Assembly: GCA_029260395.1 (NCBI GenBank)
Contig: JAJDDJ010000013.1
Coordinates: 558,001-622,000 of the forward strand
DNA from: Phycisphaerales bacterium
GTDB taxonomy: Bacteria > Planctomycetota > Phycisphaerae > Phycisphaerales > UBA1924
Reading direction: 5' to 3'
DNA length: 64,000 nt
This document shows, piece by piece, positions 4,814-27,715 of this stretch (its first letter is position 1; each line of letters opens with the position of its first letter). Under the pieces are notes generated by a model. That model ran no database searches. It worked only from the letters and a program-made list of their open reading frames with translations, and was not told the DNA's origin. The position numbers and the translations under genes are program-made.

Positions 4814-7506
4814 GGTGACCCTTCCGGCTTGCCGGGGGGCACCGTGATGAGCGACTCGATCTCGTCGCGGCGGCGAAGCTGCGCTTGCGTCAATGACTCA
4901 CCATAGAGCAGGTCGAACTGCGCGAGCACCTGGGCAGCCCGAGCCCCATCCACGCGCGCAAGCACCCGCAGCGACTCAAGCCGTGCATCCATCCACGTAT
5001 CGCTCCCAGGGTCGAGAGAACTGAGGACCAGCCGCCAAGACTCGAGAGCCGATTCGAAATCGCCCGCGTGCTCGGCGAGCCGAGCGTGCGCTGCAAGCAC
5101 TTCAGGCGATGCACCCGACTCCGCCCGCAACTCCTCTGCAATACCGATCGCCAGGTCACGCACCACCGTGTCGCCCTTCAAATCGCTTCCCAGCGCTTCG
5201 GCGTGGACCGACTCTGCCGCCAGCACCACACTCGACGCGACGCCTCGTCTCGCTTCTTCACTTGCGCCAGCGAGCAGCCCACTCAGGAGCCGCTGGCCGT
5301 ACAGCACCACGTCGCGCGCTGCGAACAGATCGTCCGCGCTCGCGCGAAGCCGATGGCTCGCACGCTCGAACAGCAGCGATTCGGCGTACTGCAGGTAGTC
5401 CCCTCCCGTGCGCACAAGTTCGGCGAAGCGGGCATCGACCGCGCCGTCGTCGTTCTTGGCAATCGCAAGCTGGAGCTGGCGATACCGCAGTTCACCCACG
5501 AGCGGGTCCTGTTCAGAGAGCTTGGCGACCTCCTGGCCAAGTTCATCGGTCAATCGTTCAGCCACTCGAATACTCGGCGGCTGCGTCGCGAACGCTGCGT
5601 CGAGCATCTGCCGAGCCAGCCGCTGACGCGGCGCTAGCGCTTCCGGCGCTGGCTCGGCCAGCCCATCGGCAAGCTCTTCGCGCAGCGCATCGGCCGTGCG
5701 CACAAACCGGTCCGCCGCCTCTGCCCTCGATGCGCCCTTGCTGGCCCGGTAGTCGTCGAACAGTAAGCCCGCCGCCATCAGACTCGCCGAACGCCTAAGC
5801 GGAGACCCCTCATCGACCGCCAGTAGGATCTCGATCGCCTCTCTCCTCGGTAGAAGCCCCCCTTCGGAGCGCCGAACAAGCAGCTCGGCCGAGCGATCCG
5901 ACGCCGGGAACCGCTGCAAGAACGCCTCAGACGCCGCGTCGCGCCGCTCAGTCAGCGATGCCGCACCCTCAGCGATACCACGATCTAATGCCACCACCAA
6001 GTTCCAAGCGGCTTCTTCGTTCAGCGATGCGCCGCTGGCTTCAATGTCCGAGGCTCGCTCGAACACATCCGCTGCCTGCTCGAACTGCCGGGCGATGTAC
6101 AGGCACCGACCCCATAGCACTGCCGCGTCGCCACGATCGGCTCCGAACCGATCGGCATCGTCCGCATTGACCGCAAGATCAAAAACCGCTGCCGCTTCAA
6201 GGTACCGGTTGGCCACCGCGTCGCTCTCGGTGACAGAGCCGAGCGGCTCTCCCGCATCAGTCTGTGCCGTCTCCGCTCGTTCAACGGCTCGCATCGCGCG
6301 CACATAGTGAACGATGAATCCGCGTTGACCGATCGGCAGCGTCCCGAACCGAGTGACGATCGCGAGCACCTCGCCGAGCTGGTCTTGTTCGATCAGGTCC
6401 GTCAGCGCGACCTGTGCCATCGCTTCAAGCAGCGACCGCCGCGCATCACCCACCGGGCCTCGCATCTCGGTGCTCATCGCCGAGAGCGTCGCCACCGCCA
6501 ACAGCCTCGCTTCGAGCGGGCTGAGCAGCGCCTCTTCTCCCTCACGCGGGTGGTGCGCCTCGTCGACGGCGAGTTGCAGGTCTGCCCACCGCTTGGCCAT
6601 GCTCAACACCACGATGCGGTGCGCGAGCAGTTGCGAACGAACATCGGCGCTGACCGCGTCGCCCGCCTCGACTACGAGATCAAGCCACCGCGTCGCGTTC
6701 ACATCGTCGCCGCGGAGTGCCATCGCACGCGCGCAACCGAGCGCCGAGCGGGCCACGTGGCTGTACCCCAGCAGGCCCGGCGCCACCGCGTCTACGCTCG
6801 GTTCGCGGTCTCCGCCGCCGCCCAAAATCCAGCCGAAGTCCTCGATCGCCCGGTCCGCGTACCTCGATTGACCCGTAAGCCGGCTGAGCTCAACTTGCGC
6901 CCAACCGAGGTAATACTGCGCCTGCGACACGCGCGAGCGCAGAGCCTCAAGCTCGTCGCGCATCGCGGCTTCATCCACGTTAGCCCGGCGTGAACCGAGC
7001 TTGCCTTCGAGGCTCCTGATCGCCCGCTGGGATTCCGCCGCGATGTCCCGCAGATCGGGCAGCATCGCTTGAAACTCACGCGCCAGCCCCTGGTCCTCCT
7101 CGGCCGAGGTTGCGCCGAGAAGCGACGCCTGACTCTGTCGCTCGGCCTGGAAGTACCGTGCCTTGACGATCGTCAGCCGCAGATCATCCACATCATCCGG
7201 CGGCACCAGCTTGAGCAGCGCCCGGCTGCGCTGCTCGATCTCACGCCGAAACACCGGGTCCTTGTCGCTCTCGAGTAGCCTGCCGTACAGCGTCGCGAGC
7301 CGAGTGGCTGCCAGCGCCCGGCTCTCGCCCTCGAGCGCCGAAAGCCTCTGCTCCAGATGCACCGCGCGCAACCGATCAAGCCCGAGCGTTTCCAGGTACT
7401 GCTCGACCGAGTCCTCGCTCGCGACGACGGTGGGCGCATCAATCTGCGCTTGTGCAGGCGACGCGGAGACCAAGATCAAAGCGAGCACGCTACTCCGAGG
7501 GCACAT
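4810..7506 (-). CDS. large exported TPR-like protein of ExbB/ExbD operon
   Basis: 898 residues with a signal peptide (MCPRSSVLALILVSASPAQA). The mature protein is almost entirely helical and rich in Ala, Leu, Arg and Glu, with TPR-like units such as AVLWGRCLYIARQFEQAADV and HARLAEHAGDFESALESWRL. It overlaps the upstream ExbD gene by 17 nt and the downstream gene by 4 nt. Large periplasmic TPR proteins accompany Tol/Exb motors in many bacteria (CpoB in the Tol-Pal system is the known small example), so an adaptor or substrate-binding role is a reasonable inference. No catalytic motif was seen. Confidence 0.75.
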   Translation of the reverse strand: MCPRSSVLALILVSASPAQAQIDAPTVVASEDSVEQYLETLGLDRLRAVHLEQRLSALEGESRALAATRLATLYGRLLESDKDPVFRREIEQRSRALLKLVPPDDVDDLRLTIVKARYFQAERQSQASLLGATSAEEDQGLAREFQAMLPDLRDIAAESQRAIRSLEGKLGSRRANVDEAAMRDELEALRSRVSQAQYYLGWAQVELSRLTGQSRYADRAIEDFGWILGGGGDREPSVDAVAPGLLGYSHVARSALGCARAMALRGDDVNATRWLDLVVEAGDAVSADVRSQLLAHRIVVLSMAKRWADLQLAVDEAHHPREGEEALLSPLEARLLAVATLSAMSTEMRGPVGDARRSLLEAMAQVALTDLIEQDQLGEVLAIVTRFGTLPIGQRGFIVHYVRAMRAVERAETAQTDAGEPLGSVTESDAVANRYLEAAAVFDLAVNADDADRFGADRGDAAVLWGRCLYIARQFEQAADVFERASDIEASGASLNEEAAWNLVVALDRGIAEGAASLTERRDAASEAFLQRFPASDRSAELLVRRSEGGLLPRREAIEILLAVDEGSPLRRSASLMAAGLLFDDYRASKGASRAEAADRFVRTADALREELADGLAEPAPEALAPRQRLARQMLDAAFATQPPSIRVAERLTDELGQEVAKLSEQDPLVGELRYRQLQLAIAKNDDGAVDARFAELVRTGGDYLQYAESLLFERASHRLRASADDLFAARDVVLYGQRLLSGLLAGASEEARRGVASSVVLAAESVHAEALGSDLKGDTVVRDLAIGIAEELRAESGASPEVLAAHARLAEHAGDFESALESWRLVLSSLDPGSDTWMDARLESLRVLARVDGARAAQVLAQFDLLYGESLTQAQLRRRDEIESLITVPPGKPEGSP

Positions 7507-7912
7507 AGCTTACCCTCACAAAGCCGGCGTCTTTGGCTGCCTGGATGCCCGCAGCCGCCGCCCCGACCGGCACCTCGCCCGAAACGCGCACGAATACGCC
7601 CGGATCCTTTGGCAGCGTCGCGAGCAGCTCACGCAGCGGCTCGGTGCTGCGCAGCTCGCGAGCGCCAAGCCGATACAACACGCTGCCGCGGTCCATCACC
7701 ACCTCGACTACCTGAGGTTGAAAGTCCGAGGCGCTGCTCGCGCCGGATTCCTCTTGCGCCCTAAGCGCGGTGGCCAGATCACTCTCCGGGTTGGCCAGCG
7801 TCGTGGACAGCAGAAAGTAGATCAACAGCATGAACACCACATCGATCATGGGCGTCATGGGCAAGCGTGCCTCGGATATGCCGACATCGAGATGGTCGCG
7901 TCCGAATCGCAT
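7490..7912 (-). CDS. ExbD/TolR-family motor subunit, second copy
   Basis: 140 residues. A short cytoplasmic N-terminus leads into the diagnostic helix LPMTPMIDVVFMLLIYFLLS, with the essential proton-carrying aspartate at D24. A periplasmic domain of about 95 residues ends in the usual GIQAAKDAGFVRVSYV segment. ExbD/TolR subunits insert a dimer of this helix into the ExbB pentamer and use the proton gradient. The ATG at 7912 follows the stop of the first exbD after 3 nt. Two different ExbD proteins beside one ExbB suggests a heterodimeric rotor; compare D21 of the neighbour. Confidence 0.93.
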   Translation of the reverse strand: MRFGRDHLDVGISEARLPMTPMIDVVFMLLIYFLLSTTLANPESDLATALRAQEESGASSASDFQPQVVEVVMDRGSVLYRLGARELRSTEPLRELLATLPKDPGVFVRVSGEVPVGAAAAGIQAAKDAGFVRVSYVPSE

Positions 7913-7915
7913 CTG

Positions 7916-8344
7916 TTAGCGCCCCTCCCCGCCCGGCACGGCGGTACCCAAACGCCACAACCGAACGTCGCGCTGCGCCATGACTCCTACCACGCGGTTG
8001 ACCGGTGCCGCGTGGGCCGCCTGATCGGCGCGTACCAACACCTCAACCAGCGATGGATCGCCGAACTTCAGGATCGAGGTCTCAAGTTTTGCCTCGAAGC
8101 CTTCCAGGCTCATTGAAACGCCGTTCACCAGCAGCTTGCCGTCGGTCAACACGTCAACGACCAAGTCAGCGGGCTGGTCGATCGCGCCGTCGCCCGCCTG
8201 CGGCGGCAGATCCATCGGCGTGCGCGCCGTCTCGGTGAATCGGCTGGTGAACAGGAAGAAAATGAGCAACTGAAACACCACATCGATCATGGGCGTCATG
8301 TCGAACACGCGGAGCCGGCGTTTACGTTTGGGCAGCAGGTTCAC
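7916..8344 (-). CDS. ExbD/TolR-family motor subunit, first copy
   Basis: 142 residues starting at GTG 8344, which overlaps the exbB stop as GTGA. The basic N-terminus (LLPKRKRRLRVFD) sets an N-in topology. The helix MTPMIDVVFQLLIFFLFTSR carries the conserved aspartate D21. The periplasmic part (LVVDVLTDGKLLVNG... PSLVEVLVRADQ) matches the ExbD fold, in which a strand-rich domain ends with residues facing the TonB-like partner. Sequence differs clearly from the second ExbD outside the helix, so this is an old duplication and not a recent copy. Confidence 0.94.
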   Translation of the reverse strand: MNLLPKRKRRLRVFDMTPMIDVVFQLLIFFLFTSRFTETARTPMDLPPQAGDGAIDQPADLVVDVLTDGKLLVNGVSMSLEGFEAKLETSILKFGDPSLVEVLVRADQAAHAAPVNRVVGVMAQRDVRLWRLGTAVPGGEGR

Positions 8345-9135
8345 GGGCCGGTCCCGTTGCCCCCGCCCGCGGGCACGGGCTGGCCTGCGGGTGCCGTGGG
8401 CCTGTGAGCCGCGGCAGCGGGCCGTTGGGGCTGGCTTCCCCCCGCCTCGACAACCGCTGCCAGGTCCTCGATAATCTCAGCCACCGAGCCCACGAGCGAT
8501 TCAACCCTGTTGCGCAAGAACGCGTGCACCGCGGTCGAAGGAATCGCCACGATCAGCCCGAGCACGGTGGTAATGAGCGCAACAGAAATATCGCCCGCGA
8601 GCTGGTCGGGCCGGGCTACTCCGCCGCCTGCGCGCAGCGTGTCGAATGCCCCCACCATGCCGATCGTCGTTCCCAAGAGCCCGAGCATCGGCGCGACTGT
8701 TGCGATAACCGCGATGGCATCGACACCCCGGTACAGCCGAGCGGTCTGCAACTGGCCTGCTTCTTCCAGCGCCGTGCGCAGCTCGAGCCCTCCGAAGGGG
8801 CTTCGGCTCACTCTGAGCAGCGCCGCCCCGAACACGCGAGTCAGGAATGACGAGTTCTCTTCCGCCTGGCAGTACACCAGTGCCCCAGCCAAGTCGCGCC
8901 GTCGCAGCGCCTCACCGAGCCGTGCGACCTGCTCGCCCGGCGCGAGCTGTTCACGCTGCAAACGAACCAGTTGGATGATGATCAGCACCACCACGGCGAT
9001 CGACAGGCCGATGATGATGAACCCCACCTGCCGGCCGTCGGCGATGTAGTCCAGCAGCGATCTCGACGATGCGGGGGCATCGGCAGTCGCCTGCATCATC
9101 GCGAGAGTCAGGGGTGAACTCGAAAGTAGATGCAT
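8341..9135 (-). CDS. ExbB/TolQ/MotA-family proton channel
   Basis: 264 residues. Three membrane helices lie at about 37-59 (VGFIIIGLSIAVVVLIIIQL), 140-165 (AVIATVAPMLGLLGTTIGMV) and 185-210 (ISVALITTVLGLIVAIPSTA), the standard ExbB order. The cytoplasmic loop between helices 1 and 2 contains LGEALRRRDLAGALVYC. The APMLGLLGTTIGMV...F motif is the family signature. A Pro/Ala/Gly-rich C-terminal tail of about 35 residues is extra. The ATG at 9135 overlaps the previous stop as TGATG. It forms the pentameric channel with the two downstream ExbD proteins; the energised partner is probably the vWA protein at 10196. Confidence 0.94.
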   Translation of the reverse strand: MHLLSSSPLTLAMMQATADAPASSRSLLDYIADGRQVGFIIIGLSIAVVVLIIIQLVRLQREQLAPGEQVARLGEALRRRDLAGALVYCQAEENSSFLTRVFGAALLRVSRSPFGGLELRTALEEAGQLQTARLYRGVDAIAVIATVAPMLGLLGTTIGMVGAFDTLRAGGGVARPDQLAGDISVALITTVLGLIVAIPSTAVHAFLRNRVESLVGSVAEIIEDLAAVVEAGGSQPQRPAAAAHRPTAPAGQPVPAGGGNGTGP

Positions 9136-10199
9136 CAAGGAACGAACTCCTGTTGAGAATGGCTCGCGAGCCGAAGCCGGCGCAGCTCGGCCTCGATGGC
9201 CTCCTGCCCGGGCCTGTCGCCGAACTGTTCGAGCATACTCGCCGCATCGGCCAGCGACGTGCTCGCCAGCCCGGGCGTCACCATGCTCCACTGCGCCGGT
9301 ACGTGCAGCAGGTGCACCACGCCAAGCTCCTGAGCCGAGCGGTCGGGCTCTGCGATGAGTGACCGCCCCACCGCAGCGTGTATCCACGCCGAGGCCCAAG
9401 AGCCGCGCAGCCCATCGAGTTGATCGAGGAGTCGATCACGCGCAGGACGGGCATCGCGCGGCTGACCCGATTGTGCGAGAACCAGATCGCGCACCAAGAG
9501 CACAGCCGGGTCGCTGCTGGTGGCCTCGGGAAATTCAGCAGGCAGGCCCGCTGCAAGCCGAGCCGACGAACGATACCACGCGAGCAACAGGTCCCCGCGC
9601 GACTCAGTCGCGCCGATCTCGTGCGTTGCAAGCAGTGAGGGCTCCGCAGCCTCGGGCCATATCGGCGGCATCGTTGCGATCAGCACACCAAGGAACGCTC
9701 CGCCGAGTCCGCTGCCTTCGTCGCGGCCGAAACCTCGCGGACGATAGACCGGCGTATCACCCCTGTACGCCGACGCATCGGTCCACGCCGACCATGTCTG
9801 CACCGCCAGATCATCCGCGCCCCGAGCGCGCTGGCAGGTCATCAGCCCCCACAGCGCCGCGGCGGTCGTCGGCCCCTTGCTTTCGCCCAACATCGCTACC
9901 AGCCGCTCGAACATCGGCTCAGCCGTCAGCGTGTCGCGCCGATCCAACCGCAGCGGTGCCCGCCAAGCCAAGTCGGCGATCTCGGCGTACGAGCCGCCGC
10001 CATCAACGCTCAGCACCCGGCCCCAAGGAACCAGCACGGGCGAAACCGTGCCCGACCCGACCGTCACGCCCTGCGCATCGATCGAGACTACCTCGCCTAC
10101 AGGCGGCGGCTCGCTCTGGCGAAGCACCACGCCCTGCGCGCACGCGAAGCCAGCGAACATCGCCAAGACCATCCCTATCAACTGTGCTGGACCGATCAA
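9135..10199 (-). CDS. exported protein of unknown function in ExbB/ExbD operon
   Basis: 354 residues. The likely start is TTG 10199 (TTGA overlap with the vWA stop, AGGGGGCGG just upstream); ATG 10172 is the alternative. The N-terminus is a signal peptide ending GFACAQG. Residues 30-65 look like a small beta domain (VGEVVSIDAQGVTVGSG) that resembles the exported modulator segment seen in some planctomycete operons. The remainder is helical and Trp-rich, with no recognised enzyme motif. Its place between the vWA protein and ExbB argues that it belongs to the motor complex. Confidence 0.72.
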   Translation of the reverse strand: MIGPAQLIGMVLAMFAGFACAQGVVLRQSEPPPVGEVVSIDAQGVTVGSGTVSPVLVPWGRVLSVDGGGSYAEIADLAWRAPLRLDRRDTLTAEPMFERLVAMLGESKGPTTAAALWGLMTCQRARGADDLAVQTWSAWTDASAYRGDTPVYRPRGFGRDEGSGLGGAFLGVLIATMPPIWPEAAEPSLLATHEIGATESRGDLLLAWYRSSARLAAGLPAEFPEATSSDPAVLLVRDLVLAQSGQPRDARPARDRLLDQLDGLRGSWASAWIHAAVGRSLIAEPDRSAQELGVVHLLHVPAQWSMVTPGLASTSLADAASMLEQFGDRPGQEAIEAELRRLRLASHSQQEFVP

Positions 10200-11185
10200 C
10201 GCCGCCCCCTGCCAAGACCGTCGATGTGCGTGTACGTCCCGCCAGAAGACTCCGCGATGCGGCGCATCCTCGCCTCCGCAGACCGGTCGATCAGCGTGAG
10301 GCAGTGGATCGGTATCTTGTGCTTGGAGTTGAGCGCGATGATGCGACCCGTCGATTGGTCCTGATCGCTGAAGTCGCCATCGGTCATAAAGAAGATCGCA
10401 TCGGGCAATGGGCGCAGCGCGAACACCAGCTCGAAGGCGTACACCGGGAACGTCGTGCCCCCGAGTTCGCTCGCTCGGTGCGCGAAGGCCCGGCGTGCCT
10501 CGCGCGTCATCGGCCCGCTGGCATCGGTCCAGCCGTCAAAGCCTTGAAGCGGGTAGCCCGCGCTGTTGTACAGCCCCACAAAGAACTCCATCGGCGGGCG
10601 CAGCTCGGTGAGCGAACGCCCAAGCTCAGCCTGCGCCGCCTCGATCTTGCCGCCCGAGGCCATCGACCCGCTCATGTCGATCACATAGGCGATCCGCCTG
10701 CCCACCGCCTCAGCGCCAAAGAAGCTCACGCTGCCCTCGCCGCCGCCACCGGTGGCCAGCTCGGAACCGCTCGTCAGATCGCCCGCACCGAGCCCCTCGA
10801 TCGCACGCTCCGTGAGCGAGACATCCGATCGGCTGGTATCAAGCTCGGCCAGTTCGATGCTCTCGAGCGCTTCGGGCTCGGGTGTTTCAAAGGTCGGCAC
10901 GGGAACCGTCGGAAGCGCTGCGCTCGACTCCAAAGCCGCAAGCTCGGTCTGCGTGACCACCGCGAGTTGAACCTCACCCGGCGGGCGGTCGCCCTCACCG
11001 GCCACGCTGCCCCGGCCCACCAGCACCAAAGCCGCCAAGACCATCAGCAGCAAGTGCAGCGAGAGCGAGCAGGCAAGCCCGACCGCCAGCGTGCCGCGGA
11101 TGTCGAACCGTCCGAGCACGCGACGGCTTTCGCCAACGGCGGCGTCGACCGGATCTTGCCGAGATGATGGTGTGCTTGATGGCAT
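10196..11185 (-). CDS. membrane vWA-domain protein with TonB-type energising helix
   Basis: 329 residues. A basic cytoplasmic N-terminus (1-30) precedes one membrane helix at 31-56, in which S40-L-S-L-H44 reproduces the Ser-x3-His spacing of the TonB/TolA helix that contacts ExbB/ExbD. A linker of about 90 residues, rich in Glu and Pro, follows. A vWA domain spans about 160-325 with a complete metal-ion site: D170-x-S172-x-S174, T244/T245 in GGTT, and D269 in MTDGD. vWA domains bind ligands through a divalent metal. The protein heads the operon, with the downstream gene overlapping its stop. My inference is that it is the force-transmitting partner of the motor with a vWA head in the periplasm. 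Confidence 0.85.
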   Translation of the reverse strand: MPSSTPSSRQDPVDAAVGESRRVLGRFDIRGTLAVGLACSLSLHLLLMVLAALVLVGRGSVAGEGDRPPGEVQLAVVTQTELAALESSAALPTVPVPTFETPEPEALESIELAELDTSRSDVSLTERAIEGLGAGDLTSGSELATGGGGEGSVSFFGAEAVGRRIAYVIDMSGSMASGGKIEAAQAELGRSLTELRPPMEFFVGLYNSAGYPLQGFDGWTDASGPMTREARRAFAHRASELGGTTFPVYAFELVFALRPLPDAIFFMTDGDFSDQDQSTGRIIALNSKHKIPIHCLTLIDRSAEARMRRIAESSGGTYTHIDGLGRGRR

Positions 11186-17966: not shown

Positions 17967-18896
17967 ATGACCGACAGCATCCATCGGCTCAGAGAGAACA
18001 TCGCCAGGGTCTACCTAGGCCCGGTCGACGCGATCGATCAGCTCATCTGCTGCCTGCTCGCACGGGGTCACGCCCTAGTCGAAGACGTGCCGGGCGTCGG
18101 CAAGACCGTGCTCGCCTCAGCCCTCGCCAAGAGCGTGGACGCCTCGTTCTCCCGCATCCAGCTCACTCCCGACCTGCTGCCCAGCGACGTTCTCGGCGTC
18201 TCGATCTTCGATCGCCAGACCTCCGACTTCATCTTCAAGCCGGGCCCGATCTTCGCCAACATGGTGCTCGCCGACGAGATCAACCGCACCACGCCCCGCA
18301 CCCAGACCGCGCTGCTCGAAGCGATGAACGAGGGCACTGTTTCGACCGACGGCGTCGTCCGCAAGCTCGATCAGCCGTTCATGCTGCTCGCCACCCAGAA
18401 TCCCTACGACTTCGAAGGCACCTACGCACTGCCCGAGAACCAGCTTGACCGGTTCCTGATTCGGCTCCGCCTGGGGTACCCCTCGGCCGAAGCCGAGCGC
18501 CGGGTGCTCGAGGTTCGCCCCGCAGCCAGCGTCCTCGACACGCTGCCCACGGTCCTCTCCGCGCAGGCCGTCATCGAGCTTCAGCAGGCCACCGACGCGG
18601 TCAAGGCCGACCGCCAACTGCTCGACTACGTCGTCACCCTCGCCACCGCCACACGCGAGCACCCCGAGATCCGTGTCGGCCTCTCGCCCCGGGGCTCGCT
18701 CGCGCTCGTCCAATGCGCCCGGGGCCGAGCGCTCATGGCGGGCCGCGACTATTTGATTCCAGATGACATCTCCCGCTCGGTAGACGCCGTGTGCCTGCAC
18801 CGGCTGGTGCTCCGCGACACACCGCTCACGGGCGACGATGCTCGCGCCAAGAGCGTCTTGGACGATGTGGTGCGGTCGCTGGTCATTCCTCGCTAA
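17967..18896 (+). CDS. MoxR-family AAA+ ATPase
   Basis: 309 residues. Walker A is VPGVGKT (41-47), Walker B is MVLADEINR (99-107), and sensor motifs appear in LLATQNPYDFEGTYALPENQLDRFL. The C-terminal lid contains VGLSPRGSLALVQCARG. MoxR ATPases act as chaperones for maturation of protein complexes and are usually encoded next to a DUF58 and vWA-domain gene. Here no DUF58 gene follows; the only vWA protein in the window is at 10196, on the other strand. No clear ribosome-binding site precedes ATG 17967. Confidence 0.93.
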   Translation: MTDSIHRLRENIARVYLGPVDAIDQLICCLLARGHALVEDVPGVGKTVLASALAKSVDASFSRIQLTPDLLPSDVLGVSIFDRQTSDFIFKPGPIFANMVLADEINRTTPRTQTALLEAMNEGTVSTDGVVRKLDQPFMLLATQNPYDFEGTYALPENQLDRFLIRLRLGYPSAEAERRVLEVRPAASVLDTLPTVLSAQAVIELQQATDAVKADRQLLDYVVTLATATREHPEIRVGLSPRGSLALVQCARGRALMAGRDYLIPDDISRSVDAVCLHRLVLRDTPLTGDDARAKSVLDDVVRSLVIPR

Positions 18897-19020: not shown

Positions 19021-22000
19021 ATGAACCTCATCCGCCGGAGAGAACCGTTGACCAATCCCGACGCTGCCCTTTCGCCCGTCCGGCCCGCTCGAAGCCCGAA
19101 CCGGATGCGGGGGCGCATCCTCGCCTTGGCGATCGGGATCGCGGTTTGTGCTGTTCCCTCGGCTCACGGCCAGTCCGACAAGGCCACCCGTGCCTACTTC
19201 AGCGCCAACGGCTTTCTGAATCGTGGTCTCTACCAAGAAGCCGCAGCCGAGTACCGCGCCTTCCTCGATGCACAAGACGACGCCCCCGCCGACCAGCTCA
19301 ACACTGCCCGCTACGGCCTGGCCGTCTCGCTCGCGCACACCGGCAGCGCCGACGCCGCTCTCGCCCAGCTGGACCTCATTGGGGGCGATGATTTCGCCTT
19401 CACGTTCGATGCCAAGTTCCTACAGGGCCAGCTCCGCTACGCCAAGGGCGAATTCGACGATGCAGCCCGCGACTTCCGCAGGATTGCCAACGCCGACCAC
19501 GCCCGTGCGCCAGAGGCCGCCAGCTTGTGGGTCGAGTGTCTCTATCGCACCGGCAAGCACGAGTCAGCGGTGCGCGCCTGGCGAGAGTCTCTCGACCACC
19601 ACGACGCTCGCCCAACAGACTTGCCCCGCGCCACGCTCTTTGCTGGCCTCTCGCTCGCTGAAGAGAGCGAACACCGCGAGGCAGCCTCAGCCCTGGCCGC
19701 GCTTGCAGATCGCAAAGACGACATCGGCAAGCAAGCCGCTATGGCCTGCGCAGGTTCCATGCTCGCCCTCGAACGAAACGACGACGCTGCCCGCCTCTAC
19801 GCGTCGCTTGCCACGCTCGATGAACCGCAGTGGGCGCTGCCCTCGACGCTCGGACTCGCCCGTCTGATGCGTGCAGCAGGTGAGCCGGGCCAAGCCGTGC
19901 GCGCCATCCGCCACCTGCAAGCTCGGCTACCAGAAGCACGAAATGACCTTCAGCTGGCCCTCGAACTCGGCATAGCGCTGATCGATTCAGGCGAGCACGA
20001 ACCCGGTAGAACCGTGCTCGCCTCAATGAACGCGGGCGGCACCGACCTTGCTGCGACCATCGAGTACTGGACCGCCAAGTCCTACCTCCGCAGCGGCGAC
20101 TCCAAACGGGCCATCACCCTGCTCGCTTCCGCAACCGACGCGCACAAAGGCTCGCCGTTGCACGCCGAGATGCTCTACGACCTGGGCGTCGCGCTCTACG
20201 AACAGGGCGAGAGCGAGCGTGCGCTCGAGCGGTTCGACCGTGTCATCCTCGAACACCCGGACTCCGTCATCGCCGACCATGCCCAGCTTGCCTCGGCCAA
20301 AACACTCGTGACTCTCGAACGCTACAACGATGCTGCCATCCGCGTAGGGCTTGTCCAGCGCAGCGATTTGCAAGCAGACGCCCAGCTCATCGTCGCGCAG
20401 ACAGCGGGCCTCAGCGACAACCCACGCCGGGGCGTGCAAGCCCTCAAGCGGTGGCTCCACAGCAACCCCGACCATCCGTCGAGCGATCAGGCCCGCTACC
20501 AGCTCGGTCTCGCCCAAGCCCAGAGCGGCGATCTCGACGACGCGGCTCAAACGCTCGATCCGCTGTTTGAAGATGGCGTGCCAGACTTCGCGCTACCCGG
20601 GCTGCTCGTGCTGGGCGATGCCGCTGCTGAGACCGGGCAATGGGACGCCGCCGAGCGTTGGTACCACATGGCGATCGATCGCGGAGCGCCGCAGGCGGAC
20701 CTTGCGGCCCTCAAGCTCGGGCTCGCGCTCTCCCGTCAAGGCCGCGCAACCGACGCCTTGCCACTGTTCGAGCAGGCATCGCGCTCGGCCGACCAACAAG
20801 TCGCTCAGCACGGGCTATTCGAGCTTGGGCAGACGCGGTTGCTCAGCGACCAACCCCGCGAAGCCCGTGCGACACTCGAACAACTGTTAGACGCTGCGCC
20901 CGGATGCGAGTTCGCTGGCTACGCGATGCTGCACTTGGGCGACATGGCCGAGCGCGAGGGGGACGCCACGCTCGCTGCATCTTGGTACAACCGGGCCGCG
21001 GATGCGGCCGATGACCCTGAGACACGGGCCGCAGCGCTGCGAAGCAGAACGCGCGTGCAGCTCGGGGCGGGCGATCTTGAATCCGTCGCCGAGGCCTCGC
21101 GTTCAGCCGATCCCGACGTGCGCGCCTACGCGGCGATCGCGAATGCGCGCATGGGCGAGTGCGATGAGGCTGCCACGGACCTGGAACGCCTGATCCGTTC
21201 GGACGATCTTTCGTTCGAGGCCGAGCGAGCAGCCCGTTACGAACTCCTCTGGTGCGCGCGCCAAGCCGGGCAACTCGATGCAGCGCTCGAGCTGGTATCG
21301 GGCCTCACCCGCGAGCCCGCTGACCGTTTCAGCCTGTTCGCAGCACTTGAGGGCGCAGCGATCGAGCTTCAGCGCGACAACCTCGCCGAGAGCGAGGACT
21401 GGCTGAACCAAGCACAGGCGATGATCGATGCCGACGGCTCGCTCGCTGATGCAGGCATCCGCGCGACGCTGGTCTACCGCCTCGCGCGCCTCGCATCGGC
21501 TCGCAGCGAGCATGAACTGGTTGTCGACCTGCTCGACGGCTTTGCACATGCACACGCGGACCACGACCTCAGAACGACGGCCGACGTCCTGCTGGGCGAC
21601 TCCCTGCTCGCTCTGGGCCGGGCGCGAGACGCCGCCGCCGCCTATGAACGTGCCCTGCCCGAGATAAGCGAGGACCTGCTCGGACCGCTCCTGCTCAGGC
21701 TCGGCGATGCGCACGCCACAAACCAGGCGTGGGACAAGAGTCGTCAAGCGTATGAACGCTACCTGCGTGAGAGCGCAGAAGCATCTGACGCCGATGTGTT
21801 CGAGTACGAAGCCCGCTTCGGCCTCGGCTGGGCGCTCGAGAACCTTGGCCATCTCGACGACGCCAAAGAGCAGTACGTCCGAGTCGTCAGTGGCCACGAT
21901 GGCCCCACCGCGGCGCGTGCGCAGTTCCAGATCGGCGAGTGCCTTTTCGCACAGGAGCACTTTGACGACGCGGTCCGCGAACTCCTTCGTGTGGACATCC

Positions 22001-22170
22001 TCTACGACTACCCGCAGTGGAACGCGGCGGCTCTCTACGAAGCAGGCCGGGCGTTCGAACAGCTCCGCAAGATCGGTGAGGCCCGCGCCCAGTACCGCGA
22101 CGTCATCGAACGCTTTGAAGATACCGAGTGGGCGCCGCTCGCCCGCGAACGCCTCGACCGTCTCAACTAA
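19021..22170 (+). CDS. giant TPR protein heading the second ExbB/ExbD locus
   Basis: 1049 residues. An N-terminal cytoplasmic stretch and a hydrophobic signal (LALAIGIAVCAVPSAHG, about 34-50) are followed by about 20 or more TPR/Sel1-like units, for example QEAAAEYRAFLDAQ, ALERFDRVILEHPDS and AKEQYVRVVSGHDG. The last repeats (PQWNAAALYEAGRAFEQL) resemble the CpoB/YbgF C-terminus that accompanies Tol-Pal. It is followed at 48 nt by exbB, so it is probably in the same operon. I infer a periplasmic adaptor or peptidoglycan-synthesis link. The exact start is uncertain because the first 30 residues are not conserved-looking. Confidence 0.85.
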   Translation: MNLIRRREPLTNPDAALSPVRPARSPNRMRGRILALAIGIAVCAVPSAHGQSDKATRAYFSANGFLNRGLYQEAAAEYRAFLDAQDDAPADQLNTARYGLAVSLAHTGSADAALAQLDLIGGDDFAFTFDAKFLQGQLRYAKGEFDDAARDFRRIANADHARAPEAASLWVECLYRTGKHESAVRAWRESLDHHDARPTDLPRATLFAGLSLAEESEHREAASALAALADRKDDIGKQAAMACAGSMLALERNDDAARLYASLATLDEPQWALPSTLGLARLMRAAGEPGQAVRAIRHLQARLPEARNDLQLALELGIALIDSGEHEPGRTVLASMNAGGTDLAATIEYWTAKSYLRSGDSKRAITLLASATDAHKGSPLHAEMLYDLGVALYEQGESERALERFDRVILEHPDSVIADHAQLASAKTLVTLERYNDAAIRVGLVQRSDLQADAQLIVAQTAGLSDNPRRGVQALKRWLHSNPDHPSSDQARYQLGLAQAQSGDLDDAAQTLDPLFEDGVPDFALPGLLVLGDAAAETGQWDAAERWYHMAIDRGAPQADLAALKLGLALSRQGRATDALPLFEQASRSADQQVAQHGLFELGQTRLLSDQPREARATLEQLLDAAPGCEFAGYAMLHLGDMAEREGDATLAASWYNRAADAADDPETRAAALRSRTRVQLGAGDLESVAEASRSADPDVRAYAAIANARMGECDEAATDLERLIRSDDLSFEAERAARYELLWCARQAGQLDAALELVSGLTREPADRFSLFAALEGAAIELQRDNLAESEDWLNQAQAMIDADGSLADAGIRATLVYRLARLASARSEHELVVDLLDGFAHAHADHDLRTTADVLLGDSLLALGRARDAAAAYERALPEISEDLLGPLLLRLGDAHATNQAWDKSRQAYERYLRESAEASDADVFEYEARFGLGWALENLGHLDDAKEQYVRVVSGHDGPTAARAQFQIGECLFAQEHFDDAVRELLRVDILYDYPQWNAAALYEAGRAFEQLRKIGEARAQYRDVIERFEDTEWAPLARERLDRLN

Positions 22171-22218: not shown

Positions 22219-22992
22219 ATGTTCACCATCCCGATCACGACGATTGCGCAGGCCACGCCCGTAAACGATGTTGCGGTGCAATCCGCCTGGGACTTCGTCG
22301 AGAAGGGTGGGATCATGATGGTCCCGCTGGCGCTGTGCTCGCTGGCCGCCATCGCGGTGGTCGCCGAGCGACTTACGGTGCTGCGCCGGCACAAGGTCAT
22401 CCCCCCGAAGATCGCGCAAAGATCCGAGGACGCGATCGAAGCCGGCACCGATGCCGCGGCGTTTGCCAAGCAGGAGCCCAGCCCCGCCGGGCAGATGCTC
22501 GCCGCGGGCATCGAGCGCGTGGGCCAGAGCACCGCCACGCTCGAACGCCACCTGACCGCCGAGGGCGAGCACCAGGTGTTCGCGATGCGCCGCAGGCTCC
22601 GCGTGCTCGTGGTTATCACCGCGGTCGCCCCGCTGATCGGCCTGACGGGCACCATCTTCGGCATGATCCGTGCGTTCCAGACCGTCGCGCTCTCGAGCGA
22701 AGCCCTCGGCAAGGCCGAACTGCTCGCGACTGGCATCTACGAAGCCATGATCACGACCGCAGCGGGCATGCTCGTAGCCATGCCCACGCTCGTGCTGTAC
22801 CACTTGCTTGCGGGCCGGGTCGAGCACCTGACCCATGAGCTCGACCGCATGGCCATTGAGTTTGTCAACAACCATGCGCGCGATGCCCTGCCCGCGCGCA
22901 CCGCCGAAGCCAAGCCCGATACCATTTCCAACGCCATCAACAACGGCGACGGCTCGCCCACGTCCGCTGCCAGCGAGGGCGCACGATGCTGA
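22219..22992 (+). CDS. ExbB/TolQ-family proton channel, second locus
   Basis: 257 residues. Helix 1 (MMVPLALCSLAAIAVVAERL) lies near 33-53. The cytoplasmic domain is followed by helix 2 (VLVVITAVAPLIGLTGTIFG) and helix 3 (AMITTAAGMLVAMPTLVLYH). APLIGLTGTIFGMIRAF is the family signature. The C-terminal tail of 35 residues is polar. Its stop overlaps the start of the following exbD by 7 nt. It differs from the first-locus ExbB across most of its length, so the two loci are not a recent duplication. Confidence 0.94.
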   Translation: MFTIPITTIAQATPVNDVAVQSAWDFVEKGGIMMVPLALCSLAAIAVVAERLTVLRRHKVIPPKIAQRSEDAIEAGTDAAAFAKQEPSPAGQMLAAGIERVGQSTATLERHLTAEGEHQVFAMRRRLRVLVVITAVAPLIGLTGTIFGMIRAFQTVALSSEALGKAELLATGIYEAMITTAAGMLVAMPTLVLYHLLAGRVEHLTHELDRMAIEFVNNHARDALPARTAEAKPDTISNAINNGDGSPTSAASEGARC

Positions 22993-23399
22993 TTGGTTCC
23001 AAGGCTGCATCCTCCGGCCCCACCATCGAGATGACCCCCATCATCGACATGGTCTTCCTGCTGCTCATCTTCTTTCTCGTCACCACGACCTACCACCAGA
23101 TCGAGCGCGAGATCAAGATCGGCCTGCCCGAGGCCGAGAGCGGCTCGCCCATCTCGGTGGCGCTCCGCGAGCTGATCGTCAACGTTACCAGCGCCGGCAC
23201 GGTCTTCGTCAGCGGCCAGGAGATCACCGTCGACCAGCTCAGGACCATCATCGTGGATGCCCTCGAACAGAACCCCAAGCAGAAGGTCACGATTCGAGGC
23301 GACAAAGATGCTTCTTACGGCCAGGTTGCAACCGTCCTCGATGCCTGCAAGGGCGCGGGCGTCGATGAGCCGTTCCTCGATACCGTACCCGCCAACTAA
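22986..23399 (+). CDS. ExbD/TolR-family motor subunit, second locus
   Basis: 137 residues. The helix IEMTPIIDMVFLLLIFFLVT carries the conserved aspartate D21. The periplasmic domain includes LIVNVTSAGTVFVSGQEITV and KVTIRGDKDASYGQVATVLD, typical of ExbD. The start lies inside the end of exbB (7-nt overlap). Only one ExbD is present in this locus, against two in the first. The partner is probably the 996-aa protein that begins 26 nt downstream. Confidence 0.95.
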   Translation: MLIGSKAASSGPTIEMTPIIDMVFLLLIFFLVTTTYHQIEREIKIGLPEAESGSPISVALRELIVNVTSAGTVFVSGQEITVDQLRTIIVDALEQNPKQKVTIRGDKDASYGQVATVLDACKGAGVDEPFLDTVPAN

Positions 23400-23425: not shown

Positions 23426-26416
23426 GTGCGACCATCTCTTGGCTCCATTCTGATCGGCGCAGCCGTGCTCCTCGGCGGGCTCGGTGCGTTCGCGTGGTAC
23501 GCGGGCAGCACCACCGTCGAGGTCCTCACCGACGACGCGACCATCGACCTCGCCACCGACGATGCCAAGCCCCGTGACATCCTCTGGCAGCCGCCCGAGC
23601 AGCTCGAGCCGGAATCGCTGCCGCAAGGCGCTCAAGGCGGCAGCTTTAGCGCCGACGGCTCACGCTTCGCCTTTGCAGCACCCGGGCCCGATGGAGACCT
23701 CGATCTCTACGAATCCCTTGTCGCCGGCGGCCAGTGGTCAGCGCCGCGCCGACTGCTCATCGCATCGAGCCAAGACCACGACATATCTCCCGCGTACGCG
23801 CCCACCGGCGAACTCTGGTTCGCCAGCGACCGTGCAGGGGGCCAAGGCGGCTACGACCTCTGGATCGCGCCGAGCACCGACGCAGGCTGGTCGCCCGCCA
23901 AGCCCGCAGCAAGCGTCTATCCGCAGCTAGGCGCTTCCGCCATCGACGAACGCTCGCCCGCCATTTCGCCGGACGGCTCGCTTCTCTGCTTCGTCGAACA
24001 ATCTGATAGCAACAGCCCGAGCAGCCTCGCGCTGTTCGACTTGCGAGCAGGCAAACGAACGATCGCCATCGAGGCACCGGCTGAAGCTGACGCCCCGCCC
24101 GTCAGCAACTGCTCGCCCGCGTTCAGCCCTTCGGGCGATTTTCTCTACTTCGCCTCTGACCGCCCGGGCGGCGAAGGCGGGTTCGATCTCTACCGCGCAC
24201 GCATGACCGTTGGCTCGCCCGGCCCCGCGTGGTGGCTCGGCAAAGAGGTCAACACCGCAAGCGACGAACTCGACCCTGCCCTTGACCTGGCGGGCTTCAG
24301 GCTCCGCTTCCGCCGGAGCGACTACGAGGGCGCGCCATCCACCGCCACCTACCAGCAGACCACCGCACGCGAGGTCTACAAGACCGTTCGCACGCGCTGG
24401 GCTTCGCTCGCTGTGCTCGCGGACTTGCTCCGCATCCTGCCCTGGCTGCTGCTCGCGCTGGCGCTCGTGCTGCTGTTCGCGGGCCTTCAGCGAAGCGTGC
24501 GCTCTGGCGACTGGCAGCAGCGGTTCAGCACGCTCGGCCTCATGGCCCGATGCGTTCTCGCGTCCATCGCTATTCACGCCCTACTCGCTGTGCTGCTTGG
24601 GCTTTGGGACATTCACGCGGGCGTGCCCGGCGAAACCGGCACCGAGCAGACCCGCGTCGCGCTCACCACCAATCGATCGGCCGCCGCCGCGGCCAACCAG
24701 TTGCAAGCCTCCGCAGCCAGCGCGAAGCAGCCCGTTGCCGAGGCTGCACGCCAGCTGCCCGCGCCCACCGCTCAACCCACGGTCGAGCATCGCACGCAGG
24801 CACCCGCTGCGCGCGCTGCCCCGGCGCCCTCTCGCATGACCGCTGCCACGCCCAGCGCGATCATGAACGCAGTGCCAGCGCCCGCTGCCAGCTCAGCAGA
24901 GGTCGCCATCGAACCATCCTCGATGCCCACACATGCGCGGTCTGCGACGAGTGAGCAGCGTTCGACCGACGCACTCCTGACCGACACCGCTCGGCCCACC
25001 GCTGCCCCGAGCCCGACCGGGGCGACCGCTTCCACCATCGAGACCAATGCTCCCTCAGCTACAGCGCCCGCAGCCCGGCAGGCTGTCGCGGACGCGCCCT
25101 CGCCATCATCCGCCCAGCCCGTTGCCGCTGCCTCCGCCCCTGCACGGACAGCGATCGAACTCCCGCAGAGCGTGCCGGGTGCACTGCCCACCGTGGAGCG
25201 CTCAGCGAGCGCTGAGTCCAGCTCACGCGACGCGCAGGCCCCCACGGATGCCCCGCTCATGGATCGGCCCGATGCGCCAGCGCCAGCGACGAGCCGGGCG
25301 TTCGCGACCCAAGCCCCCGACGCGCCAGCTGCGCGAACGGCTCAGGCACCCTCCATCGAGCCATCGCTCTCGCCATCAGCCGCGCCCGCTCAGCCGGTCG
25401 CCGCCGCCGTGCCGCTGCCGACGCTCGATCTTGGCGAACTGGCCGCTCCCGCTATGCCCACCGGCGAGCGTTTGTCCGAACGTGAACGAGACAACGCCGC
25501 CAGCTCGCAAGCAACTATCGCTGAGCCCGCGTCGCGGGCTGCAGTCTCCGTCCAGCCCGGCGAGAGCCACCTTATCGAGACAGTGAGCCAAGCTGTCGCC
25601 CCCCAGCAAACCCCCGCGCCGACGATGACCGATGCCCCCGCAGCGCCCAGCATCGAAGCGCCTCAGCCGCTCGCGGCGCTGGCCGTGCCCACCTTTGCGA
25701 CGCCGGTCATGCCCGTCGCCCGCGTGATCTCGGGCTTGGTGCTCGATGCTCGCACCGATGAGCCCATCACCGAGGCCACCGTGCTGCTCGACGGCCACGA
25801 CCGCCAGATCCGCGAGACCACAACCAGCGAGGACGGACGGTTCGCCATCACGCCCGATCGGCTTCCCGAGTTCGCAGCCCTCACCGCGTCCGCCGATGGC
25901 TACCTGTCCGAGTCGGTCAACATCGCCGAAGCTGACGTAGGTGATGACGGCGCGTCGGTCACGTTCCGACTCAACCCTCGCAGCCGATCGATCATCGCGC
26001 TCGAAAACGACCCGCAAGTCCGTCACCTCGGCAACGACGAATTCAGCGGCCGGATCAACAGCCAGTTCCAGGTCGACAGCGAGGGCCTGACCTACGAGCG
26101 CACGTTCGTGCTCGCGCCGGATCAGCTCCCGCCGGTGATCGATATGGCAGCCATCCGCATGATGGCACGCGGCGTGCAGAACCCCAACCTCATCTTTATC
26201 AACGGACGGGAGCTGCCCACCCGGCTCGATGAATCACCGGGTGACGGCAGCTTCGGCGAGTTCGTCGCCCGCGTGCCCGCCGACTGGCTGCGAGAGGGCG
26301 AGAACACGATTCTCATTCGGGCGGTCAAACGCGCCAACACGGACATCGACGACTTCGAATTCGTCAACCCCCAGCTGTACCTCCGCAGAACCCAACGGTC
26401 AGAACGCGCGCAATAG
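23426..26416 (+). CDS. beta-propeller / TonB-like / carboxypeptidase-regulatory fusion protein
   Basis: 996 residues from GTG 23426. Domain order: membrane helix 1 (7-27); PD40/WD40-type propeller repeats (about 68-260; GGSFSADGSRFAFAA, ERSPAISPDGSLLCFVE, FSPSGDFLYFASDRPGG) as in TolB; helix 2 (about 332-353); a basic cytoplasmic loop; helix 3 (about 373-393) with S380-I-A-I-H384, the Ser-x3-His of TonB/TolA; a disordered Ala/Pro/Ser/Thr linker of about 350 residues; a carboxypeptidase-D-regulatory-like beta sandwich (about 765-835; VISGLVLDARTDEPI); and a C-terminal domain (about 850-990) of unknown type. The topology fits an energised envelope-spanning protein that combines TolA-like and TolB-like parts. 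Confidence 0.85.
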   Translation: MRPSLGSILIGAAVLLGGLGAFAWYAGSTTVEVLTDDATIDLATDDAKPRDILWQPPEQLEPESLPQGAQGGSFSADGSRFAFAAPGPDGDLDLYESLVAGGQWSAPRRLLIASSQDHDISPAYAPTGELWFASDRAGGQGGYDLWIAPSTDAGWSPAKPAASVYPQLGASAIDERSPAISPDGSLLCFVEQSDSNSPSSLALFDLRAGKRTIAIEAPAEADAPPVSNCSPAFSPSGDFLYFASDRPGGEGGFDLYRARMTVGSPGPAWWLGKEVNTASDELDPALDLAGFRLRFRRSDYEGAPSTATYQQTTAREVYKTVRTRWASLAVLADLLRILPWLLLALALVLLFAGLQRSVRSGDWQQRFSTLGLMARCVLASIAIHALLAVLLGLWDIHAGVPGETGTEQTRVALTTNRSAAAAANQLQASAASAKQPVAEAARQLPAPTAQPTVEHRTQAPAARAAPAPSRMTAATPSAIMNAVPAPAASSAEVAIEPSSMPTHARSATSEQRSTDALLTDTARPTAAPSPTGATASTIETNAPSATAPAARQAVADAPSPSSAQPVAAASAPARTAIELPQSVPGALPTVERSASAESSSRDAQAPTDAPLMDRPDAPAPATSRAFATQAPDAPAARTAQAPSIEPSLSPSAAPAQPVAAAVPLPTLDLGELAAPAMPTGERLSERERDNAASSQATIAEPASRAAVSVQPGESHLIETVSQAVAPQQTPAPTMTDAPAAPSIEAPQPLAALAVPTFATPVMPVARVISGLVLDARTDEPITEATVLLDGHDRQIRETTTSEDGRFAITPDRLPEFAALTASADGYLSESVNIAEADVGDDGASVTFRLNPRSRSIIALENDPQVRHLGNDEFSGRINSQFQVDSEGLTYERTFVLAPDQLPPVIDMAAIRMMARGVQNPNLIFINGRELPTRLDESPGDGSFGEFVARVPADWLREGENTILIRAVKRANTDIDDFEFVNPQLYLRRTQRSERAQ

Positions 26417-26501
26417 CGGGGCTCACCCCAAGCTCGGCGCACAAAGAAGGCCACCCCGCCAAGCGTGATGGCCCGTCCCTGTCATGGGGATTGCCCCCAA
26501 A

Positions 26502-26586
26502 AGGCCGCGGTGGGATTCGAACCCACGATTGGCTTTCGCACAACGGATTTGCAATCCGTCCCCTTAGTCCACTCGGGCACACGGCC
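26502..26586 (-). tRNA. tRNA with Cys anticodon (GCA) and long variable arm
   Basis: 85 nt without encoded CCA. Acceptor GGCCGTG pairs with CGCGGCC. D-arm CCC/GGG. Anticodon arm ACGGA-TTGCAAA-TCCGT gives anticodon GCA. The T-arm is GTGGG-TTCGAAT-CCCAC. The discriminator is U73, the universal Cys identity base. The variable region has 16 nt (TGTGCGAAAGCCAATC) and can form a small hairpin with a GAAA loop, as in class II tRNAs (Ser, Leu, Tyr). Ordinary tRNA-Cys has 4-5 nt there. U73 plus GCA argues for Cys, while the body is Ser-like. It lies in the 267-nt gap between the propeller gene and the gene at 26684. Confidence 0.88.
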
Positions 26587-26683
26587 GGCCAAAGGACGGG
26601 CATCGGTGCCCCGGCCTTTAGCCAGACCGTATCGGTGGCCGATGGCGTGGTCAATGCGCCCGCGAACTCTCCGAGGTACCCTG

Positions 26684-27715
26684 ATGCCCATGCCCACCCT
26701 TCACAGCGCCACTTTGCTGAGCACACTCCTGGCCATAACTGGCCTGCCGCTTGCCGCCGCCAGCGCTCAGGATGCCCCACCATCGCTTGACCCCCCCAGT
26801 CAAACGGAACGCCTGCCCAAGCCAGATGTCGACCCCCGGTACCTCCCGACCCCGCCCGAGCGAGTCATCCCCGTCGTGCCACAGCTTGAGGCGCTCGACA
26901 TCCCCAAACCGGGCGGCAAGACCGCTGCCGAGGGCAGCTTTCTTATCCGCAGGCTCGGCGTGATGCACCTTATTGAGACCGGCGACCTGATCTTCGCGCC
27001 CGCTGTCGAGCCCGGCGAGCAGAAATCGCCCGTGTTCCTGATCTCGCCCTCGAACCAGAGCGACCGGCTTCGCGCGCAGATCGACGGCTCCTACCGCTGG
27101 ACCGGCCGAGTGAGCGGCGAGGTGTTCGTCTATAAGGGCCGCAACCTGCTCGTGGTGTCCGCGTTCGCACCAGAGGCCCTCGACCAGCCGATGGAATCCG
27201 CTGATCCTGCACCGACTCAGCCCGCAGAGGCTCAGCCCGAGGATGCCGACGCTCCTGGTGACCCCGAACCCACCGACCCGACCCGGCCCAACACGACCGA
27301 CCCAACATCCGTGCTCGACCCGCGCGTGACGGCTCTCACCGAGCAACTGCTCTCGGAGAACCGTTCGCCGCGCGCGCTCGATCCATCCATGAACGACCCG
27401 CGCCTCGATGCGCAGGAACAGGCCGCCACGCCTCTGACGACCGGCACACAGATCATCCGCCGGCGTGCGCGCATGGTGCGTGACCTAGGCGGCCGCTGGC
27501 AGATCCGGTTCGATCAAGACGGCGACAACCACGAGCCCCCTCTTACCATCGTGCCCTGCCAGCTTCTTGAACTCATGGAGCGGCAGGCCTCGATGAAGGG
27601 CGAGTCGTGGACGTTCCACGTCAGCGGCAGGGCCGTTGCGAGCCACCAAGGCGGCTACATCATCCCAACGCTGTTCATCTCAGAACAGCCCAGCGACGTG
27701 CTGCCCCGCCAGTAG
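26684..27715 (+). CDS. exported proline-rich protein of unknown function
   Basis: 343 residues. A signal peptide (about residues 3-25, ending AAASAQD) is followed by a first domain (about 60-170; FLIRRLGVMHLIETGDLIFA, GRVSGEVFVYKGRNLLVVSA), an acidic Pro-rich linker, and a C-terminal domain (about 245-343) containing MVRDLGGRWQIRFDQDGD and SWTFHVSGRAVASHQGGYII, which repeats the fold pattern of the first. Two ATGs (26684 and 26690) are possible; a TACCCT box at 26677-26682 lies 7 nt before the second, compatible with a leaderless mRNA. I recognise no family. Confidence 0.7.
   Translation: MPMPTLHSATLLSTLLAITGLPLAAASAQDAPPSLDPPSQTERLPKPDVDPRYLPTPPERVIPVVPQLEALDIPKPGGKTAAEGSFLIRRLGVMHLIETGDLIFAPAVEPGEQKSPVFLISPSNQSDRLRAQIDGSYRWTGRVSGEVFVYKGRNLLVVSAFAPEALDQPMESADPAPTQPAEAQPEDADAPGDPEPTDPTRPNTTDPTSVLDPRVTALTEQLLSENRSPRALDPSMNDPRLDAQEQAATPLTTGTQIIRRRARMVRDLGGRWQIRFDQDGDNHEPPLTIVPCQLLELMERQASMKGESWTFHVSGRAVASHQGGYIIPTLFISEQPSDVLPRQ

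Follow-up and report, generated by a model that had tools for sequence, protein, structure and literature searches.

A beta-propeller protein with an internal TonB/TolA-like helix, encoded beside ExbB and ExbD in Planctomycetota and related phyla

Background

Few kinds of arm driven from the inner membrane are known: TonB, TolA and, as recently proposed, the vWA force transducers of PVC bacteria, in which an SHLS helix is encoded behind TPR-tolQ-tolR genes (Williams-Jones et al. 2025, PMC12204202). In TonB, strand addition joins the D-box to the ExbD dimer (PMC10907165). Two propeller proteins of the cell envelope also matter here. TolB is soluble and periplasmic, with six blades and an extra N-terminal domain. 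PorE of the Bacteroidota, a lipoprotein of the outer membrane, carries an OmpA domain and is described as a CpoB-TolB-CRD-Pal fusion (PMC12204202) in which the propeller has five blades and is followed by the CRD (PMC7192894).

We analyzed a 996-residue protein of a Phycisphaerales bacterium in which a propeller and a TonB/TolA-type helix appear in one chain. The window, i.e., the whole stretch of DNA that was analyzed, comprises 64,000 nucleotides of contig JAJDDJ010000013.1, and positions below refer to it unless a homologous locus is named. We consider it likely (probability roughly 0.7) that the fusion is a force transducer of the TonB/TolA kind, driven by the proton motive force and with its own motor. 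No description of a propeller-TonB fusion in planctomycetes was found in the open-licence literature, and the fusion apparently belongs to a widespread, undescribed family of bacterial envelope proteins. What is new is a well-bounded family in several PVC phyla that has an internal drive helix, a PorE/TolB-type propeller placed on the drive, and an exchangeable end.

Results and discussion

The operon and the architecture of the fusion protein

The fusion gene is the last of four genes on the same strand (Table 1). The ExbD gene overlaps the ExbB gene and the fusion gene starts 26 bp past ExbD. Both motor genes, which the initial annotation had noted as neighbors, lie directly upstream of the fusion (Pfam). 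All 11 strong homologous loci that were found among related genomes keep the order TPR-ExbB-ExbD-fusion, each with a TPR ortholog immediately 5' of ExbB. A MoxR gene (17967-18896) was dropped as an operon member because it is absent from the homologous loci. To judge from alignments, the key motor residues are intact: ExbD D21, invariant in 11 of 11 family members, aligns with the position of the proton-carrying Asp of E. coli ExbD/TolR, and ExbB T145 and T180, invariant in 12 of 12, align with the channel threonines of E. coli ExbB/TolQ. The fusion gene is followed by a tRNA-Cys on the opposite strand (26502-26586, -). An ORF at 26465-27715 (+) overlaps this antisense tRNA with its N-terminal part; its true start is probably an internal ATG at about 26684.

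Table 1. Features of the operon and of the fusion protein, in window coordinates
Feature	Position	Strand	Basis or remark
TPR protein of 1049 aa with an apparent Sec signal and CpoB/YbgF-like repeats	19021..22170	+	Pfam TPR; NCBIfam TIGR02795 tol_pal_ybgF 1.1e-48
ExbB/TolQ-type motor subunit	22219..22992	+	PF01618 7.7e-26
ExbD/TolR-type motor subunit	22986..23399	+	PF02472 1.4e-29
Propeller/proposed energized-helix/linker/CRD/jelly-roll fusion, 996 aa	23426..26416	+	GTG start, ORF intact
Helix 1, residues 5-26, N-terminal membrane anchor or signal sequence	23438..23503	+	hydropathy, AlphaFold2
PD40 beta-propeller, residues ~51-320, probably about five blades	23576..24385	+	Pfam PD40, AlphaFold2 strands, Foldseek, NCBIfam
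Helix 2, residues 326-359, periplasm to cytoplasm	24401..24502	+	hydropathy, AlphaFold2
Short cytoplasmic loop with basic residues, 360-371	24503..24538	+	sequence
Helix 3, residues 372-398, proposed energized helix	24539..24619	+	hydropathy, AlphaFold2, conservation
S380-x3-H384 motif	24563..24577	+	H in 79/79, S in 71/79
Ala/Pro-rich linker, residues 399-764, D-box-like strand near start	24620..25717	+	composition
D-box-like strand TRVALTT, 409-415 (H384+25 to +31)	24650..24670	+	E. coli TonB ISVTMVT equally spaced
CRD/transthyretin-like domain, residues ~766-853	25721..25984	+	PF13620 2.2e-9; structure matches
C-terminal jelly roll, CBM-like, residues ~854-991	25985..26398	+	AlphaFold2 pLDDT 91; structure matches

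The initial annotation described three helices, PD40 repeats, an Ala/Pro linker, a CRD and a C-terminal domain, and this layout was borne out by three lines of analysis. Pfam matches PD40 (2.7e-13) and CarboxypepD_reg at residues 768-849; hydropathy places the helices at ~5-26, ~327-352 and ~370-395; and an AlphaFold2 model built with ten homologs (mean pLDDT 77.7) gives the helix and propeller boundaries of Table 1. The linker (about residues 398-764, ~367 aa) is 27% Ala and 14% Pro. Helices 2 and 3 are joined by a basic loop and the propeller is acidic, a charge pattern that fits, and so supports, the topology put forward at the outset (N-terminus in, propeller out, loop in, linker out). Removal of helix 1 as a cleaved signal peptide would not alter the way in which helices 2 and 3 are oriented.

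Helix 3 and the strand that follows it

S380xxxH384 is the sole S-x3-H within a hydrophobic helix of the fusion. Loss of these two residues among homologs had been named beforehand as an outcome that would refute an energized helix; the conservation analysis found H384 invariant in all 79 distinct helix-3 sequences and residue 380 nearly so (Ser in 71, Ala in 8). Across the ~400-residue core, only seven columns are invariant (77 members; mean column identity 48%), and H384 is one of them. This invariance, the rarity of such columns and the linkage to motor genes together argue that the motif is not due to chance.

In comparison with E. coli TonB and TolA (sequences from the MG1655 record), the S-x3-H and the Leu at H+7 (L391) match. 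The Ser at H+11 is missing, its place being taken by D395 at a position that is not conserved among members, so that the SHLS motif, which calls for both the Leu and this Ser, is incomplete in the fusion. The alignment with E. coli TonB runs free of gaps from the S-x3-H through the Leu to the D-box, whose place is occupied by TRVALTT. An amphipathic strand begins between H+24 and H+34 in 67 of 77 members, mostly at +26 to +28; that of the fusion itself is a weaker D-box than those of most members. We regard the strand as D-box- or motor-box-like, and predict from its sequence and spacing that it binds ExbD. A cysteine eight residues ahead of H384 (Cys376, 24551-24553), outside the TonB motif, is found in 94% of members.

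Further traits that the fusion has in common with TonB and TolA are an Ala/Pro linker, a distal binding domain and adjacent motor genes. It differs from them in that the energized helix is the third and internal instead of N-terminal, with the propeller before it, and in having neither TonB_C nor TolA domain III.

Might helices 2 and 3 be only an anchoring hairpin, in a protein that joins or regulates ExbBD as a scaffold or sensor but is not pulled? Propellers and TPRs often function as scaffolds, members differ in their C-terminal modules, and both the missing Ser at H+11 and the Ala found in eight members at position 380 are in keeping with such a role. It would, however, leave unexplained an invariant His inside a membrane helix, a D-box-like strand at TonB spacing and a long disordered linker that ends in binding domains, and we think it rather improbable.

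The propeller

The initial annotation called the propeller TolB-like, which holds for its fold but not for its sequence. The best NCBIfam matches are PorE (1.1e-26) and the CHU_0125 OmpA-like outer-membrane integrity protein (3.6e-26), ahead of TolB (2.6e-10). In bits, the PorE model NF052230 scores 93.4 against a cut-off of 600, and the TolB model TIGR02800 39.8 against a cut-off of 343; membership of the TolB family was rejected on this score. With the propeller model as a Foldseek query, TolB structures rank first (E 3e-13), and strands in the model suggest about five blades. We therefore describe the domain as a PorE-type propeller with a TolB-like fold. In VIA-align, GH43/GH62 enzymes reach Z scores of up to 19.7 and TolB 17.8; we read the high Z scores of the enzymes as a shared five-bladed shape rather than as a sign of enzymatic activity.

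With PorE and CHU_0125 of the Bacteroidota the fusion shares the PD40 propeller, the CRD and a TPR partner, although the TPR is fused in PorE and is encoded by a separate gene here. PorE has no energized helix, and Pfam finds no OmpA domain in the fusion. That PorE, with its TPR, five-bladed propeller and CRD, is the best NCBIfam match might suggest a motor with PorE-like parts that drives type 9-like secretion or gliding-like surface movement. We consider this very improbable given an ExbBD-type motor, the absence of the OmpA domain and a PorE score so far under its cut-off.

The C-terminal module

The model of residues 756-996 is confident (AlphaFold2, pLDDT 91) and all-beta, a CRD followed by a CBM-like jelly roll, and as modeled it is neither TolA nor TonB domain III. 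Pfam likewise detects no TonB_C domain in the fusion, and a vWA domain was ruled out by Pfam and by the all-beta model. Structures similar to the CRD are carboxypeptidase D (Z 13.3) and the SusC N-terminal-extension domain 9hfj (Z 11.0); those similar to the jelly roll are BcsB (Z 10.4), Xyn30D (Z 9.2) and also CBM35. Rhamnogalacturonan lyase matches the two domains together across the whole C-terminal model (E 2e-9). Within the jelly roll, the segment HHLGNDxFxGRINSQFQ is nearly invariant in the family alignment and may form a binding loop.

Other members end differently, in a squalene-cyclase-like alpha/alpha toroid or in a toroid followed by CRD and jelly roll. Among the 43 complete members that could be classified, 22 have the toroid, 11 the CRD and jelly roll, and 10 both. 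On a quick tree these states need about 10 changes, a figure to be read with the many weak and some long branches of that tree, on which the starred branches force only one or two changes per group; repeated swapping of modules is likely.

What would such ends hold? Planctomycetes take dextran into the periplasm by a route that is CCCP-sensitive and unexplained (PMC5394234). One could imagine an uptake arm for polysaccharides or other macromolecules, in which the CBM-like end binds glycan at the outer membrane for the motor to draw into the periplasm. The lyase, BcsB and CBM35 matches agree with this, as would the CCCP-sensitive import if the dextran-importing species use the operon. Against it, our survey of neighboring genes shows no recurrent carbohydrate-enzyme or receptor family around the operon, the toroid-only members have no CBM-like domain, and CBM-like folds have other roles too, all of which makes an uptake arm unlikely. 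More broadly, and with similarly slim odds, the family could represent a whole class of periplasmic arms that PVC bacteria power by a motor, all sharing the propeller-bearing core as drive unit and carrying exchangeable ends (CBM-like, toroid or both); the CBM-like versions would pull polysaccharide or wall glycan and so explain energy-dependent handling of macromolecules in planctomycetes.

Distribution of the family

A genome scan combined with a phylum search found members in Planctomycetota (mostly Phycisphaerae, also Gemmatales), Kiritimatiellota (Kiritimatiellia) and Verrucomicrobiota (Opitutae, Verrucomicrobiales, Pedosphaera). The scan of named genomes used a propeller-helix alignment, and its DNA patterns came from the propeller alone; a scan of genome contigs with just the fusion as query gave no matches, whereas the alignment query succeeded. 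Although motor genes played no part in the choice of loci, which were picked on propeller sequence, ExbB and ExbD lie immediately upstream in 77 of 78 non-redundant three-helix members, and the lone exception (L100) has a TPR gene. Forty propeller homologs, mainly PorE/OmpA types of Bacteroidota, have neither a motor nor the helix-2/3 unit. Twelve further homologs are truncated, split into two genes (in Kiritimatiellia/Verrucomicrobia) or missed by the helix filter. Since it is present in only 10 of 36 sampled relatives of the same family, the system is not a universal housekeeping device.

Two unusual arrangements deserve mention. In the two-gene form of Kiritimatiellia/Verrucomicrobia (loci L082, L087, L089 and L092), a propeller protein of ~790 aa, which in L087 has toroid-like matches, comes first after ExbD, and a second propeller protein carries helices 2 and 3 and the SxxxH. 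On a Phycisphaerae contig (L122, 3017-9486), several related propeller ORFs stand in tandem with no motor nearby.

Genome context

In the source genome, which is 93% complete so that missing genes are no proof of absence, we found no TonB_C domain, no TonB-dependent receptor plug and no TolB that passes its cut-off. We rejected a classic TonB receptor as partner because the Plug domain is missing here and because, among genomes of the same family with the fusion, only three (G008, G010 and G011) have one. In all, 7 of 41 genomes of the family have a plug domain, with no systematic overlap with the fusion.

A search for a Pal-like partner, which the initial annotation had proposed, turned up two lipoproteins with a lipobox and an OmpA domain, both of them unlinked to the operon. 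A third OmpA match, located immediately after a MotA/ExbB gene, is probably MotB. Is the operon, then, a compact analog of Tol-Pal, with the TPR protein as CpoB, ExbBD as TolQR, the propeller as TolB and the arm as TolA, acting on an unlinked Pal-like OmpA lipoprotein and holding the outer membrane during cell division? This is a more specific version of the force-transducer explanation. One operon does carry the Tol-Pal part list, TolB structures lead the Foldseek ranking, and the genome pairs two Pal-like proteins with the apparent lack of TonB_C and TolB just described. Yet the propeller sequence is nearer to PorE/CHU_0125, the TolB N-terminal domain and TolA domain III are absent, the Pal-like genes are unlinked, the operon is absent from most sampled genomes of the same family, and the C-termini vary in a manner unlike TolA. 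We hold the analogy to be possible but doubtful. Overall, the idea of a propeller and an energized TonB/TolA-type helix in one chain, beside its own motor, was supported; the sequence kinship of the propeller and the nature of the C-terminus needed correction, and no link to Tol-Pal emerged.

Neighboring genes give a hint of another sort. Upstream DNA of at least 2.5 kb is available for 40 homologous loci, and in 26 of them a gene for a BlaR1-type M56 peptidase precedes the TPR gene (examples are L034 3075-5483, L036 12593-15271, L060 585-3317 and L068 225-2993), accompanied in about half of these by a BlaI-type repressor. No such neighbors occur near the fusion in the window. BlaI/BlaR1-type pairs typically control responses to wall damage. 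Their presence may hint at cell-wall stress control, and the wall-damage role tilts our guess about the purpose of the system toward envelope maintenance.

Proposed function and comparison with vWA force transducers

If the fusion is a force transducer as proposed above, ExbB and ExbD would form its motor in the inner membrane. Helix 3 would dock on the exterior of ExbB via S380 and H384, and the periplasmic ExbD dimer would hold the TRVALTT strand the way it holds the D-box of TonB. The linker would span the periplasm and carry the pull to the CRD and jelly roll, which would act as the gripping end, with a cell-wall or outer-membrane glycan or glycoprotein as the probable target. Helices 1 and 2 would hold the propeller at the periplasmic face of the inner membrane, beside the motor; there it would probably bind the TPR protein, a PorE- or Pal-like partner, or both. 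Envelope maintenance would be the likeliest purpose of the system, i.e., tethering of the outer membrane to the wall or wall remodeling, and the swappable grasping ends suggest how the family might perform mechanical work on the distal side of the envelope. The operon, the architecture, the conservation, the D-box spacing and the variation of modules are seen in sequences and models, whereas docking to ExbB, pulling, the part played by the propeller, the glycan target and the purpose are inferred. Against this reading speak the missing Ser at H+11, the Ala at position 380 in eight members, the weaker D-box of the fusion itself, the patchy distribution, the lack of BlaR1 neighbors in the window and the toroid ends, for which an envelope target is not obvious. 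Two questions become testable with this family: how work at the outer membrane is energized in bacteria without TonB-type receptors and classic Tol-Pal, and by what route propeller proteins came to pair with ExbBD/TolQR motors.

The vWA transducers (PMC12204202) share with the fusion their PVC hosts, an operon with TPR, tolQ-like and tolR-like genes, an SHLS-type helix, a motor box and a non-TonB C-terminus. The fusion differs in lacking vWA, in having a propeller and helix 2, and in its end, which is CRD/jelly roll or toroid; its system also has one ExbD instead of two. The architecture of the fusion is matched neither by these transducers nor by PorE.

The window contains a second motor cluster, at 4810-11185 (-). 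It comprises a vWA protein (10196-11185) whose SxxxH helix (H44) is accompanied by the D-box-like sequence EVQLAVV, a 354-aa protein, an ExbB, two ExbD-like ORFs (7916-8344 and 7490-7912) and an 898-aa protein. This cluster fits the vWA force-transducer family of PMC12204202. As a sister system in the same window, with an SxxxH helix, a D-box, an ExbB and two ExbDs, it speaks for the force-transducer reading of the fusion.
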